Part shown: piece by piece, positions 1,586 through 6,655 of the stretch
Layout of the letters: each line of letters starts with the position of its first letter
Position numbering within the stretch: position 1 is the first letter of the stretch
The notes under the pieces: generated by a model
What the model saw: only the letters and a program-made list of their open reading frames with translations
Database searches by the model: none
What the model was told of the DNA's origin: nothing
IMG/VR virus record: IMGVR_UViG_3300025151_005430
Span: 1-27,516 of that record
Origin: a virus
DNA length: 27,516 nt
Reading direction: 5' to 3' (one strand)
Made by a program: the position numbers and the translations under genes

Positions 1586-1782
1586 TATGCACTCTCGCTT
1601 TCTGTTGGCTTGTCGTGGTTAGTATGCTTTCTGCATATTGTTATTGAACCATTAAGAACTTCTATCTCTCTGTCTAACATATCACTTTCATCTCGCTCTG
1701 ATAGATTGGATTTAAGTTCTTGCAGTTCACCTAACCATTTGTTTAGCTCGTGTATAGCTAAGAGTAAAGGTGTATCACTCAT
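1585..1782 (-). CDS. Small, probably coiled-coil protein, 65 aa
   Basis: The sequence from residue 8 to about 48 is a continuous amphipathic helix with heptad-like spacing of Leu and Ile (IHELNKWLGELQELKSNLSE, then MLDREIEVLNG). It is followed by a short polar tail. This is typical of a dimeric coiled coil or an oligomerisation module. There is no DNA-binding motif. The ATG shares one base with the stop of the SGNH-like gene upstream, so its translation is coupled to that gene. Function unknown. Confidence 0.7.
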   Translation of the reverse strand: MSDTPLLLAIHELNKWLGELQELKSNLSERDESDMLDREIEVLNGSITICRKHTNHDKPTESESA

Positions 1783-2591
1783 TAGAATACACCTTTCTCT
1801 TGTAGATACTTATGTATGTTGTTTGCTATACGTTTAGAACCTTTCTCGTTTGGTTCTATCTCGTTGTAATAACAATCTACTGTCATAAAGTTTCTTGTGT
1901 CTATGACATCATAAGTTTGATTGTTATTTCTACGATTGTATTTGTTAGCTAAACTGTACAATCTGTCGTTCCACATAGATACGATAGACAAAGCTATGTT
2001 ATCTACGTTGTTGAAACGTGTTGGATTGAAAGCTAGATTACCTGTGTAGCATGTAAGAAACACAAACGTTCTACCTTTTTGTGATAGTTCGCTAAGTAAT
2101 GTTTCGTATGCACTAGATAACTTGTCTAACTCTTGGTTCATAATGCCCATAATCTCGTTAGTATCTTTGTTGTCTTTAAGTAAATGCAGTTTTGCTAACA
2201 AATCATTACCACCTGCACTAATTACAACGTAATCACCACGAACTTTATTTGCTGAACTGATACAATCGCTTACTACATATCCATCAACAGCTTGGTCGTT
2301 GTAAACATGTTGGCTAACTTTTGACTTAGCTCGTAAATAATCTACTGTACCTTTGCCTGTTCCTGTATATGCAGAGTTGTCAATCACACTATCGCCTATC
2401 AATGTGCAGATAGCGTTCTCGTTAACTGTTCTATTGCTACCAAAGAAAGAGTTATTTGTAATACTCTTTGATGTTATTGGCTTACCAAACTCTAACTTCT
2501 CATCATGTATAATGATGTCCTCGTTGGTCAAGTCAATATTACTTTGGTCAATATACCATGTGTTATCAATATCATCTATTCCTTTAGACAT
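1782..2591 (-). CDS. SGNH/GDSL hydrolase-like protein with an altered catalytic block V
   Basis: This 269-aa protein keeps three hallmarks of the SGNH esterase fold: block I with the nucleophile Ser68 (IGDSVIDN, 65-72), a block II-like Gly104, and block III GGND (127-130). The C-terminal block V, normally D-x2-H-P-N-x2-G, reads N-E-I-E-P-N-E-K-G at 243-251. The catalytic His is therefore Glu246 and the preceding Asp is Asn243, although the surrounding PNEKG is preserved. Family knowledge: these enzymes de-esterify sugars or lipids using Ser-His. Inference: it is either catalytically altered or a binding protein derived from a host-type esterase, perhaps a surface O-acetyl esterase. No signal peptide is visible. 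It is the first gene of the leftward operon, with an AGAAAGGA ribosome site at 2596-2603. Confidence 0.75.
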   Translation of the reverse strand: MSKGIDDIDNTWYIDQSNIDLTNEDIIIHDEKLEFGKPITSKSITNNSFFGSNRTVNENAICTLIGDSVIDNSAYTGTGKGTVDYLRAKSKVSQHVYNDQAVDGYVVSDCISSANKVRGDYVVISAGGNDLLAKLHLLKDNKDTNEIMGIMNQELDKLSSAYETLLSELSQKGRTFVFLTCYTGNLAFNPTRFNNVDNIALSIVSMWNDRLYSLANKYNRRNNNQTYDVIDTRNFMTVDCYYNEIEPNEKGSKRIANNIHKYLQEKGVF

Positions 2592-2595
2592 GTAT

Positions 2596-2622
2596 TCCTT
2601 TCTGTCAATATGTATTGTAGCA
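2596..2622 (-). promoter_or_regulatory. Extended -10 promoter plus RBS for the leftward early operon
   Basis: Reading the minus strand there is TG at 2621-2622, one base, then TACAAT at 2614-2619, which is an extended -10 element. No convincing -35 at normal spacing is seen. Ten bases after the -10 is AGAAAGGA (2596-2603), five bases before the ATG at 2591. The order -10, about 11 nt, AGAAAGGA recurs at 3121-3145 and 3799-3824. The promoter lies just after the U-tract of the structured RNA, so the SGNH operon can be transcribed independently of it. Confidence 0.5.
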
Positions 2623-2642
2623 TATTGTTAATATATGTGTAC

Positions 2643-2713
2643 AAAAAAAAGTATCTAGTTTTCGGTCTATCACTAAACAGGGCTTGGAAAATGAAATCCT
2701 ACTCACTAGATAC
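2643..2713 (-). terminator. Intrinsic terminator closing the structured RNA
   Basis: GTATCTAGT (2705-2713) pairs perfectly with ACTAGATAC (2651-2659), followed at once by eight T residues (2643-2650) on the minus strand. The loop is long (about 45 nt) and contains TAGACC (2664-2669). That segment can pair with GGTCTA (2722-2727) just outside the stem, which would give an H-type pseudoknot. The U tract gives the strand and the 3' end of the RNA. Confidence 0.75.
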
Positions 2714-3057
2714 TTTCTTGTTAGACCTTTTGATACTTGTCTAGGTATGACACACTTCTGTCAAGCAACCGATATGAGTTATAGACTTCGGTTAGTCTTG
2801 CTATTTACCGATTAGCGTTTCCTTATCCCTACTAATCGTTCAAGGCTCTCTTTAATAAGTGAGGGCTTTATAAATAGCTTGTAGCACACAGTTGGTGGCT
2901 TACACAATTAAGTCTTAGCAGTTTACCCAATGCTATGTGCTACAAGCTACCTACTGCACTAGGAACACTTGGTTGCCTTGTATATTTTCAAATACAATCC
3001 CTGTGCTTACGTTCAACAAAGGGGCTTTGTTTTTCGTAAGTAGCTTGAAAGAAACAA

Positions 3058-3114
3058 TTAACGTGGTCTGCAATTAGTTGTTTCGTGTCTAGGTGGTAAT
3101 GAACCACCAACCAT
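3058..3114 (-). CDS. Possible 18-codon ORF in the 5' part of the structured RNA
   Basis: The sequence AGAAAGGA (3121-3128) lies six bases before an ATG at 3112-3114. This is the same ribosome site, with near-identical spacing, as at the real genes starting at 2591 and 3794. The frame encodes MVGGSLPPRHETTNCRPR and stops at 3058-3060. Its first codons form a 6-bp hairpin (3092-3108) and can alternatively pair with an internal loop at 2892-2899. It may be a leader peptide, a true micropeptide or a decoy start. No family is recognised. Confidence 0.4.
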   Translation of the reverse strand: MVGGSLPPRHETTNCRPR

Positions 3115-3139
3115 TATCGTTCCTTTCTCATTTAACATT

Positions 3140-3145
3140 ATCATA
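3140..3145 (-). promoter_or_regulatory. Possible -10 box for the structured RNA
   Basis: TATGAT on the minus strand lies 11 nt before the AGAAAGGA at 3121-3128. This matches the spacing at the two other leftward promoters (10 and 12 nt). No good -35 is seen, so readthrough from the 3794 promoter is the alternative source of the RNA. Confidence 0.35.
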
Positions 3146-3152
3146 TCTGTAA

Positions 3153-3299
3153 TTATATGTTGTCTTTTTCTCTAATTTTTTTCTCTTGGTAAATCCTGTA
3201 ATAAAGATTTACTTTACTTGCTAACCAATTACTAATAGTTAATGCACCAACTAAATAAATTGGAATAGATAACCAAAAGGATAATTCAATCTTGCTCAT
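3153..3299 (-). CDS. Small single-pass membrane protein, 48 aa
   Basis: The protein begins MSKIELSFWLSIPIYLVGAL; residues 5-26 form one hydrophobic transmembrane helix. A basic tail follows (YRIYQEKKIREKDNI), giving an N-out, C-in prediction by the positive-inside rule. The start ATG at 3297-3299 overlaps the end of the upstream 87-aa gene by 14 nt, so it is probably coupled to it. Small early membrane proteins in phages can act in exclusion, membrane remodelling or lysis control, but none of these can be assigned. There is no lysis cassette next to it. Confidence 0.65.
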   Translation of the reverse strand: MSKIELSFWLSIPIYLVGALTISNWLASKVNLYYRIYQEKKIREKDNI

Positions 3300-3549
3300 C
3301 TTGTTGCTTTCTATATTCTTCTTTGAACTCTAATGCAGTTTCGTTCATGCTCTGCATAAATACTTTCATATCATCATCACCTTTATCGTTGATGTATTCT
3401 GTAAAAGAGTTTCTTAACTTATCGTTAGCTAAATAACCTGCTATGAGTAATCTCATAAAGCTATCATCTTTACTTAAATGCTCTACGATTGTCATTTGAG
3501 TAATCTTTAGCATTTGTATTTGGTCTTGTATTTGTTCTATGTCTTGCAT
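3286..3549 (-). CDS. Hypothetical helical protein, 87 aa
   Basis: A largely helical, charged protein. The N-terminal part (MQDIEQIQDQIQMLKITQMT) looks like a coiled-coil segment, and the C-terminal part (MNETALEFKEEYRKQQDEQD) is another polar helix. The start lies inside the upstream gene (13-nt overlap) and is preceded by AAAAAGGGGA, a usable ribosome site. Its first 15 bases are identical to the first 15 bases of the upstream gene (both encode MQDIE), suggesting a shared or copied gene start. Function unknown; no similarity is recognised. Confidence 0.7.
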   Translation of the reverse strand: MQDIEQIQDQIQMLKITQMTIVEHLSKDDSFMRLLIAGYLANDKLRNSFTEYINDKGDDDMKVFMQSMNETALEFKEEYRKQQDEQD

Positions 3550-3818: not shown

Positions 3819-3847
3819 ATCATATCACATATCTTTTTTTATGTCAT
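3819..3847 (-). promoter_or_regulatory. Sigma70-type promoter, leftward
   Basis: On the minus strand, ATGACA (3842-3847, five of six matches to TTGACA) is followed by exactly 17 nt and TATGAT (3819-3824, five of six matches to TATAAT). The predicted start is near 3812, giving a short leader with AGAAAGGA at 3799-3806 before the ATG at 3794. It is the best-formed promoter in the early region. Confidence 0.7.
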
Positions 3848-3889
3848 TAAATGTTTACATATAATCTTACATCTAGTAATCTTAATTAT

Positions 3890-5095: not shown

Positions 5096-5380
5096 ATGAG
5101 TAAGCAAGGTCATAGTCAAGAACAGATTGACAGGAAGTTGCAGAGTATTGAAAGTTGGAAAGATACAATTACTAGATACAAAAAAGAAGTACAACAAATC
5201 AATGACAGAATAACTCCTTACAAGAATTTAAGTCAATGTGATTTAGATAGGTACGATAGAAATAAATCTATATTGCGTAATGATATTCAAATCGCTGAAC
5301 ATCAAATAAGGATATTGGAAAGTCAATTAATGGTAGATAAGTTAAGGAAAGATAACTACAAAATTAAAACAAAGATGTAA
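5096..5380 (+). CDS. Coiled-coil protein, 94 aa
   Basis: This is a highly charged, almost entirely helical protein with long heptad-like runs (QIDRKLQSIESWKDTITRYK, EVQQINDRI, ILRNDIQIAEHQIRILESQL). A short loop around residues 43-52 (PYKNLSQCDL) divides it into two helices that could pair as a hairpin. The ribosome site AAAGGTAGG precedes the ATG. It is the last gene of the rightward early operon, and a strong intrinsic terminator follows 25 nt after its stop. The family is not recognised. Confidence 0.7.
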   Translation: MSKQGHSQEQIDRKLQSIESWKDTITRYKKEVQQINDRITPYKNLSQCDLDRYDRNKSILRNDIQIAEHQIRILESQLMVDKLRKDNYKIKTKM

Positions 5381-5405
5381 TCATCTGACTAACCAATAAA
5401 GGAAG

Positions 5406-5437
5406 GCACTTGTTTAATCGCAGGTGCTTTTCTTTTT
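5406..5437 (+). terminator. Intrinsic terminator ending the rightward early operon
   Basis: GCACTTG (5406-5412) pairs with CAGGTGC (5421-5427) with one G-U wobble and an 8-nt loop, followed by TTTTCTTTTT. The reverse strand lacks a U tract, so it terminates rightward transcription only. Confidence 0.85.
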
Positions 5438-5992
5438 GTTGTTGCTAATCCTTCACAGTTTATTGTCGCATATCCTTCTATGATGTAAGTTAACTATATA
5501 TCCCTAGTATTTAATCAAAAGGGGTACACTACATCTAGTATCACTACATAATGTATGCACAATATGTTGTATGTCTACTATTATGCGTTATCTCTACTTG
5601 TCGCACAGGCAGGATTGTCGTGGGCTTTCACATAGGGGGGTTAAATGTGGGCGTGGCTTTATTTATATGTACACCCTCTAAATATATGCTGTTAACTAGG
5701 TACTATATCTTGTGGTACTACATATAGTGGTGTACCTAAAACAATAAAATAAGTAATTTCTTTAAGTCTGTTGTAGTCAAGTAAAGTAAACATAGAGAGT
5801 ACAGCTAACCCTGTGTCATCCCTCCCAACCGATAACAAATCTGTTTATGACTTATTTAAATATTATGAAGTAATAGGCTTTGACCCTAGTTATGATGGTC
5901 CTGCTAGTCCACTTTATTGAAAGTTTTTATCAAGAATCCTTTTCTAAAAGCAGGAAGAATCCTCTGATTGTCTGACTACCATATCACATAAA
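5438..5992. other. Non-coding control region, no convincing gene
   Basis: About 555 nt without a well-supported gene. It contains an inverted repeat made of TAGGTACTATAT (5697-5708) and the matching ATATAGT ... ACCTA arm ending near 5738. There are three copies of ACTACAT (5528-5534, 5543-5549, 5717-5723), a G6 run at 5635-5640, and a direct repeat AAGAATCCT (5932-5940 and 5955-5963, 23 nt apart). Base composition near 5600-5660 is richer in G and C than the surroundings. It could hold regulatory sites or an origin, but nothing diagnostic is seen. Confidence 0.4.
5813..5920 (+). CDS. Doubtful 35-codon ORF or gene remnant
   Basis: From a GTG at 5813 the frame reads protein-like sequence (KSVYDLFKYYEVIGFDPSYD) before a TGA at 5918. 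The frame stays open upstream to a TAA near 5778 without an ATG. There is no ribosome site at the right distance. Codon choice fits the real genes, including GAC before Pro, which is the window-wide habit. It could be a short gene with an unusual start or the tail of a decayed one. Low confidence. Confidence 0.25.
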   Translation: MSSLPTDNKSVYDLFKYYEVIGFDPSYDGPASPLY

Positions 5993-6070
5993 TTATTTAT
6001 TTACAAGTTTCACAAAATAACAACATTGTGATATTATGTTATTGGGTTTCATGAGTGATTCTTTATTCAT
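5993..6070 (-). CDS. Possible 25-codon micropeptide gene behind a strong RBS
   Basis: The strongest Shine-Dalgarno sequence in the window, AGAAAGGAGG (6077-6086), lies six bases before an ATG at 6068-6070. The frame encodes 25 residues, starting MNKESLMKPNNIISQCCYFV and ending KLVNK. Five bases upstream of the ribosome site is a very stable two-part hairpin (6092-6134), which in this orientation would sit in the 5' leader and could control ribosome access. The product resembles nothing known to me. It may be a regulated micropeptide or the remains of a longer gene. Confidence 0.4.
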   Translation of the reverse strand: MNKESLMKPNNIISQCCYFVKLVNK

Positions 6071-6091
6071 AATAGCCCTCCTTTCTGATTG

Positions 6092-6134
6092 ATACGACAA
6101 TAAATCCCTTCAGGCAACTGAAGGGTAGTCGTAT
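6092..6134. promoter_or_regulatory. Strong two-tier hairpin upstream of the 25-codon ORF
   Basis: ATACGAC (6092-6098) pairs with GTCGTAT (6128-6134), and inside it CCCTTCAG (6106-6113) pairs with CTGAAGGG (6118-6125) around a four-base GCAA loop (TTGC on the other strand). All 15 base pairs are perfect, with a 7-by-2 internal loop. No U tract follows on either strand, so it is not a simple terminator. Its position against the minus-strand ribosome site suggests a leader regulatory element. Confidence 0.55.
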
Positions 6135-6153
6135 AACAACAACATCTAATTAC

Positions 6154-6187
6154 AAAAAAATTTTTTTTACGCACTTATTGGGGGGGG
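6154..6187. other. A7T8 tract and G8 tract ahead of the late region
   Basis: Seven A then eight T (6154-6168), then eleven bases, then eight consecutive G (6180-6187). Such a G run is conspicuous in an AT-rich genome. It sits just upstream of the TATAAT at 6192 and within 500 nt of the terminase gene. It could be a structural DNA element or part of a packaging site; homopolymer length may also suffer sequencing error. Confidence 0.4.
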
Positions 6188-6191
6188 AAGC

Positions 6192-6197
6192 TATAAT
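6192..6197 (+). promoter_or_regulatory. Perfect -10 box ahead of the hairpin-rich late leader
   Basis: TATAAT lies at 6192-6197. The region 16-19 nt upstream (TTACGC, 6167-6172) is a weak -35 with the G8 tract in the spacer. A start about seven bases downstream (near 6204) would put the 5' end of the RNA at the base of an 11-bp hairpin, a common arrangement for stable structured RNAs. Confidence 0.4.
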
Positions 6198-6202
6198 GAC
6201 AT

Positions 6203-6460
6203 AAGCACAAGAAAGTCTTGTGCTTAGGTAGAAATACCTATAGAAAAGAAAGTATGCTTTTCATCATATGACATTTGTGATTATGTGATTGATTAAGTTT
6301 ATTTCTTTTTCTTTCATAGAGTAGCGTAGGTGCGAGGACCTCCGAGGCTAAGGAAAATGGTTGCATGACCTGCCCAAAGTGATGGCAAAACAACTGCCTA
6401 CATACTCATAACAGTAATGGACATACTGTACGTGCAGAACCTCACTTCGGTGAGGTTTTG
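6203..6460 (+). ncRNA. Candidate structured leader or small RNA upstream of the late operon
   Basis: A series of helices runs rightward: TAAGCACAAGA/TCTTGTGCTTA (6202-6212/6216-6226); TAGGTA-GAAA-TACCTA (6225-6240), a GNRA-capped stem; GAAAAG/CTTTTC in 6244-6265; a domain closed by GAGTA/TACTC (6319-6323/6403-6407) and GTAGG/CCTAC (6326-6330/6397-6401); ACAGTA/TACTGT (6411-6416/6424-6429); and a UUCG-capped 9-bp stem (6437-6458). No ORF with a ribosome site is present. It may be an independent RNA, or an untranslated leader that alters RNA polymerase before the 21-kb late operon. Both are inference. Confidence 0.5.
6437..6459 (+). terminator. UUCG hairpin with short U run (terminator or attenuator)
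   Basis: GAACCTCAC (6437-6445) pairs with GTGAGGTTT (6450-6458), with a TTCG tetraloop and one terminal G-U pair. The run TTTT spans 6456-6459. The U tract is short, and readthrough into the late genes must be possible unless the promoter at 6461 starts them afresh. Confidence 0.5.
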
Positions 6461-6479
6461 TGGTATAGTACCAATAAGC
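6460..6479 (+). promoter_or_regulatory. Extended -10 element, candidate late promoter
   Basis: GTGGTATAGT followed by AATAAGC, with TG at 6461-6462 one base before TATAGT (6464-6469). The same 20-nt pattern, 14 of 20 positions identical, occurs at 27402-27421 ahead of the next transcription unit. No clear -35 is visible; the hairpin at 6437-6458 occupies that space. The first gene (ATG 6497) is about 20 nt beyond the predicted start. Confidence 0.5.
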
Positions 6480-6496
6480 AACAACAGGAGATAGAA

Positions 6497-6559
6497 ATGC
6501 CGGTAGGCAAAAAAGGAAAGAAAAAAAGATACCCAAGTAAAAGAATTACTAAAAGATAA
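6497..6559 (+). CDS. Very small basic protein, 20 aa
   Basis: The peptide MPVGKKGKKKRYPSKRITKR has eleven Lys or Arg among 20 residues. AGGAGATAGAA gives a textbook ribosome site before the ATG, so translation is likely. Such a basic peptide may bind nucleic acid and could be a minor virion or regulatory component; I know no family. It is the first gene of the late operon, and the next frame starts with a TTG immediately after its stop. Confidence 0.6.
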   Translation: MPVGKKGKKKRYPSKRITKR

Positions 6560-6655
6560 TTGAAAATACCATGTCCTGCTTGTCAGGAGGATTTAGTGGT
6601 GGTTAAAGAGAAAGTAAAGTGCGTTAATAAAGAATGCAAAAATTATGACAGATAA
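6560..6655 (+). CDS. Zinc-ribbon microprotein, 31 aa, TTG start
   Basis: The frame starts with TTG directly after the stop of the 20-aa gene and overlaps the terminase start by 11 nt (ATGACAGATAA). It reads M/L-KIPCPACQEDLVVVKEKVK, then CVNKECKNYDR. A CPAC pair and a C-x4-C pair about 17 residues apart make a minimal zinc ribbon. No ATG start is available and the ribosome site is weak (AAAAGA), so expression would depend on coupling to the upstream gene. The perfect fit between two genes and the four ordered cysteines argue that it is real. Confidence 0.5.
   Translation: MKIPCPACQEDLVVVKEKVKCVNKECKNYDR

Follow-up and report, generated by a model that had tools for sequence, protein, structure and literature searches.

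Type III toxin-antitoxin RNAs (ToxI-like repeats) and phage escape mimics are arrays of small structured RNA units with a plausible context in phage defence; in CRISPR arrays and RNA anti-CRISPRs variable sequence lies between conserved repeats; integron attC sites and gene cassettes are modular cassettes bounded by inverted, foldable sequences; and REPINs and MITEs lie between genes and have a spacer flanked by short inverted repeats. Shuffling of domains is characteristic of proteins, and we know of no natural RNA family whose domains can be exchanged freely under a universal connector grammar. GOLLD and ROOL form RNA-only cages (PMC12286853), and are the nearest known kind to the RNA described here, which resembles them in being long, densely structured, non-coding and phage-borne (PMC12286853), although the model match that defines them fails. 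GOLLD and ROOL are single conserved architectures, often located near tRNA islands, whereas this RNA consists of exchangeable domains joined by universal connectors.

The window, which is the whole 27,516-nucleotide stretch that was analysed, is a 27.5 kb IMG/VR virus record (IMGVR_UViG_3300025151_005430) of 33% GC. The RNA is located between a short leftward-transcribed gene pair on its upstream side and a SGNH hydrolase gene with the same reading direction downstream. Its 5′ end probably lies slightly past position 3133, near a TATAAT at 3152–3157 that is a putative −10. The features of the locus are as follows.

2643–3157, minus strand: whole modular RNA unit, from the putative −10 to U8; fold z −5.15, borders kept in relatives, no ORF.
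3147–3164, minus strand: putative promoter −10 context (GACAACATATAATTACAG); kept in the relatives listed below, the matches of a promoter scan of the locus not being above chance.
2602–2624, minus strand: putative extended −10 promoter of the SGNH hydrolase gene (TATGCTACAAT); kept in relatives, weak match to the consensus.
1782–2591, minus strand: downstream neighbour gene, GDSL/SGNH hydrolase; Pfam PF00657 above its cut-off.
3286–3549, minus strand: upstream neighbour gene, of no known family; 93–94% identical in L003 and L054.

The preliminary description of this DNA had placed the RNA between early operons. Because it sits after the leftward gene pair and before a SGNH gene of the same direction, that placement requires the putative extended −10 promoter at about 2602–2624 to be real.

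The minus strand of 2640–3150 has a predicted folding energy of −143.1 kcal/mol, compared to −111 ± 6.2 for dinucleotide shuffles (z −5.15, 0/100), and the plus strand is also non-random with a weaker fold (z −3.66). One helix is a stem of 17–18 bp formed by 2874–2890 with 2934–2950; the stem closing the terminal hairpin (2643–2716, followed by U8) and several helices of 5–12 bp complete a series that runs end to end, as had been proposed for about 490 nt. The earlier assignment of the strand as minus and of the 3′ end from the stem plus U8 also stands, and both the terminal hairpin and the T-run are kept in relatives; the hairpin was not picked up by a simple terminator scan because its loop is too long for the rule of that scan. 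Open stretches on the minus strand of the RNA region do not exceed 41 codons, which agrees with the claim that it lacks a long ORF. Equally, no tmRNA or tRNA signature had been seen, and ARAGORN reports no tRNA or tmRNA genes in the window or in 60 loci with the element. None of the Rfam 15 covariance models, GOLLD and ROOL included, matches the window at the gathering level or with a useful E-value, and there is no credible match in 34 loci at either gathering or relaxed thresholds. Two relaxed hits to a microRNA family in L110, one on each strand, fell well short of the gathering score and were dismissed.

The preliminary description had likened the RNA to the large ornate RNAs such as ROOL and GOLLD. 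It is instead a chain of separate, interchangeable hairpin domains, and we are almost certain of its architecture, in which these domains are joined by the near-universal connectors UAGCUU and AAGCUA. Two types of module alternate along the RNA: A modules have the form UAGCUU-stem-payload-stem′-AAGCUA, and B modules the form AAGCUAYYUA-payload-UARRUAGCUU. Where an A module adjoins a B module the connector is common to both, which puts their closing stems in competition for the same six or seven bases and makes the coordinates of adjoining modules overlap in the window. The units within one array differ from each other, and those of the window are given here from the 5′ end.

3047–3129, minus strand: 5′ module, with a core (3057–3117) that is payload family 1 and is elsewhere an A-module payload; covariation, fold z −2.9.
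2944–3046, minus strand: B module, a hairpin with a CCCCUUU loop (3006–3040) plus an extra hairpin, closed by AAGCUACUUAC / GUAGGUAGCUU; fold z −3.46.
2874–2950, minus strand: A module of payload family 5, with arms at 2934–2950 (GUAGCUUGUAGCACAUA) and 2874–2890 (UGUGUGCUACAAGCUAU); fold z −5.54, 161 homologous cassettes, arm-type covariation.
2800–2880, minus strand: B module of B family 4, with hairpin GAUUAGUAGGGAUAAGGAAACGCUAAUC (within 2809–2838), closed by GCUAUUUA / UAAAUAGC; fold z −1.92.
2717–2802, minus strand: module AGCAAGAC...CUUGACAG...AGGUCUA; recurs in L107, L161, L188 and L285.
2643–2716, minus strand: terminal B-type hairpin with a GCCCUGUU loop and U8, an intrinsic-terminator-like 3′ end; fold z −3.62, T-run kept in relatives.

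The module at 2717–2802 does not on its own fold better than its shuffles (z −0.49). Payload family 1, aligned over 10 sequences including the 5′ module of the window, has 13 pairs of which six are changed on both sides, with 99.2% paired; B family 4 has six entries from five loci, and the terminal hairpin covaries when aligned with 23 B modules of the same (main B) family.

The window RNA belongs to a large family of modular phage RNAs that appears to be undescribed, and its arm sequence was not found in the open-access literature. A scan of viral contigs with the left arm only gave at least 119 stretches, and at least 161 cassettes with inserts of 22–189 nt were extracted from 112 loci. The right arm is present for 148 of 150 testable left arms by exact pattern, compared to 114 of 2340 windows drawn at random from the same loci. 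A search with 36 different 9-nt arms found at least 212 distinct A modules (each sequence counted once) in 139 partly overlapping loci, and three scrambled connector pairs gave none. The A payloads fall into at least 105 families, of which 62 are singletons (the Chao1 estimate is about 216), and there are at least 45 B families, the largest having the GCCCUGUU loop. Three of the 161 cassettes (L139:8189, L172:5900 and L153:2359) appear to be chance matches inside genes, and these hold all three of the unpaired double changes.

That the arms are conserved as paired RNA is seen in several ways. First, pairing of the arms extends over 17 positions in the 161 cassettes, with conserved G·U wobbles at positions 1, 11 and 16 (in 125, 136 and 152 cassettes, respectively); these would be A·C mismatches on the opposite strand, which fixes the RNA strand, minus in the window. 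Secondly, in loci that were found independently by the neighbouring B module only, with no arm pattern, the 14 nt following the module are complemented downstream at 13–14 positions in 44 of 45 instances, whereas shuffled controls never reach 14 and reach 13 in 0.7%. Thirdly, an alignment of 21 distinct arm pairs, in which the payload was swapped for an artificial 8-nt spacer that was left out of the counts, has 99.4% paired cells and 12 of 16 pairs changed on both sides. This paired percentage leans upward because the 3′ arms were located as the best complements of the 5′ arms, a lean that is covered by the shuffle control of the B-module-found arms. The same alignment contains 70 compensatory cells compared to 15.5 ± 3.8 in shuffles, and sliding the register destroys the signal. 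The arm sequence is thus free provided that pairing holds, and the A stem is established by covariation, with helices conserved at the RNA level on the minus strand as in conserved structured RNAs. Covariation among the homologues is very strong and no reading frame passes through the RNA, which bears out the initial suspicion of an undescribed structured non-coding RNA. The commonest arm is conserved in sequence, which could mean that it is a site of protein recognition or of processing and not simply a connector.

These properties separate the family from the other systems introduced above. Type III toxin-antitoxin RNAs are tandem repeats of one unit with a toxin gene, whereas the units here are unlike each other and have no Rfam match; next to the window locus no toxin gene family was seen, the neighbours being the SGNH hydrolase and an unknown small protein. 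CRISPR arrays have near-identical direct repeats and spacers of even length, in contrast to the paired, inverted and covarying arms of these RNAs, with variable parts that are structured and 22–189 nt long, and A and B modules that alternate. Unlike those of integrons, the cassettes are non-coding RNA domains, and no integrase was noticed among the partly annotated genes. REPINs and MITEs are DNA-level repeats without strand preference; the modular RNAs have strand-specific wobble pairing, covarying arms and gene-tied orientation, and are nearly confined to phages.

Reassortment has moved domains between phages, and turnover at the locus far outpaces that of the genes flanking it. The same locus is found in eight relatives identified by their terminases (L003, L006, L011, L014, L015, L020, L042 and L054), with conserved borders, ACATATAATTACA on the 5′ side and a hairpin plus T-run on the 3′ side, and an interior that is a patchwork; a conserved stem GTAGCTTGTAGCACATA...TGTGTGTTACAAGCTAT surrounds differing inserts. 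The window, L003 and L054 share 95–96% protein identity in the SGNH hydrolase and 93–94% in the upstream gene, with largely different arrays between them, and L011, L014, L020 and L042, with terminases 92–95% identical to that of the window (SGNH 53–58%), have other arrays again. Payloads also move between positions and arms: family 1, which forms the 5′ module of the window, serves as an A payload in L101, L107, L161 and L172; the GGUUGGAACUCGUG module occupies an A slot in L181 and a B slot in L157; and ten payload families are borne by clearly different arms.

The element is almost confined to viral contigs and is common there. The left-arm pattern occurs in 18 bacterial or archaeal contigs, with the right arm in only one of them (L208 / L291, C21), which lies in a MAG labelled Gammaproteobacteria and encodes a terminase 72% identical to that of the window. 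A bacterial or archaeal origin was rejected, as this sole full cassette sits on a terminase-bearing phage contig; the contig is probably mis-binned, and would otherwise be the only hint of a host. No DNA relatives were found in isolate phages, either for the whole region or for one cassette, and the window terminase shares only 24–26% identity with those of isolate phages, mostly of Streptomyces. A terminase search of 397 genomes from the order of a Pelagibacteraceae single cell gave no match, and one of 369 genomes from the class of the MAG returned only the MAG itself. A WhiB-like motif was not found. Our guess is that the host is a marine actinobacterium; we infer the marine origin from the relatives examined in the host question and from a Mediterranean-type MAG label.

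As to function, the reading that we favour, with an even chance, is that the payloads are exchangeable trans-acting RNA effectors. The window array would probably be made as its own transcript of about 500 nt ending at U8, and many other arrays would form an untranslated part of operon mRNAs. The short shared connectors could support homologous recombination that swaps or adds domains, and each payload would work independently, as a structured effector that targets host or competitor factors in trans. Action on host factors is suggested by the diversity of the payloads, their turnover at fixed sites and their near confinement to phages; trans effectors would account for all of these, and for the independence of the payload from the neighbour gene. 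The likeliest role for such effectors would be as decoys or inhibitors of host defence, and a search of the open-access literature for phage RNA decoys found nothing. We suggest only tentatively, and regard as on the unlikely side, that shuffled payload combinations neutralise different host defences, making the locus a combinatorial RNA arms-race island; if true, this would be the equivalent, in RNA, of anti-defence gene islands and would comprise at least 100 undescribed RNA domain families.

The genomic placement of the arrays bears on a second explanation, that they are cis-acting leaders or intercistronic elements controlling their own mRNA through attenuation, RNase III-type cleavage of the long A stems, or protection of transcript ends. 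The cassettes are mostly intergenic, and where a simple ORF caller identified the neighbour their orientation is that of the downstream gene in 126 of 151 instances and of the upstream gene in 135 of 152. This co-orientation with both neighbours would suit such a role, as would the position of many arrays just upstream of genes, ending shortly before a start codon, and, for attenuation, the terminator-like hairpin plus U8 that precedes the SGNH gene in the window. However, payload identity does not track the downstream gene and changes while that gene stays, and about 100 payload families are hard to explain as a generic processing signal; we thus consider a cis role rather unlikely. We regard as improbable an RNA scaffold or cage, a large particle assembled from the domains, perhaps as multimers, with the payloads as variable decoration: the arrays share with the cage-forming GOLLD and ROOL a phage-encoded, long, dense and non-coding character (PMC12286853), and recurrent loops such as GCCCUGUU could make contacts, but the domains vary in number, order and kind, which is ill suited to one fixed particle, and neither the GOLLD nor the ROOL model matches. 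That the arms are the DNA-level terminal repeats of mobile hairpins (MITE- or REPIN-like) with an incidental RNA fold is very improbable, since in spite of inverted repeats around variable cargo that are spread over many phages, the repeats are asymmetric and pair as RNA on one strand (G·U, not A·C), orientation mostly follows the genes, arm sequence is free so long as pairing is kept, and no payload family has two members in one locus, though only about one such pair is expected by chance.

Whatever the function, the arrays raise the question of why phages diversify RNA domains so fast at fixed sites. They provide about a hundred new RNA domain families that are absent from Rfam, several of them already with covariation, and, should the payloads act in trans, RNA-based inhibitors of bacterial proteins or defences would be obtainable from them.

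Several smaller features recur among the modules and around the arrays. UAGG-N5-6-GGAAACG is a small hairpin with a constant loop and strongly differing stems that is found in otherwise unlike payloads and B modules (e.g. window 2809–2838, L156:3113-3239, L188:3578-3701, L190:11542-11719 and L103:4076-4178). Some payloads of families 0 and 11 contain a T-arm-like hairpin (GUAGGUUCAAAUCCUAC or GUAGGUUGAAUUCCUAC; e.g. L082:9254-9350 and L110:3227-3363), though ARAGORN sees no tRNA. B family 0, the largest (e.g. L181:4951-5001 and window 2643–2716), has a conserved AGUA opposite GAA around the inner stem, an arrangement that resembles a bulged-G (sarcin-ricin/loop E) motif. A further large RNA may lie ahead of the arrays in L161 (upstream of the array at 5282–5620), L273 and L277, where there is a long non-coding stretch that is conserved (…GAGGAACATTTGGTCAATGTGAAACTACGAGTTTGCCGAAAAGACAAAGTC…); L161 has no Rfam match. 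The flanking genes were clustered and 10 representatives scanned with Pfam; one common neighbour protein (L139:3167-3940), for which Pfam returned no family, is reminiscent of annealing recombinases, although this is a guess. Elsewhere in the window, about 1.2 kb before the terminase (5380–6645) has runs of G and no plausible long gene, and two back-to-back promoter-like sites (minus TGATATGAT, plus TATAAT) are located at 3827–3865, between the leftward and rightward gene blocks.
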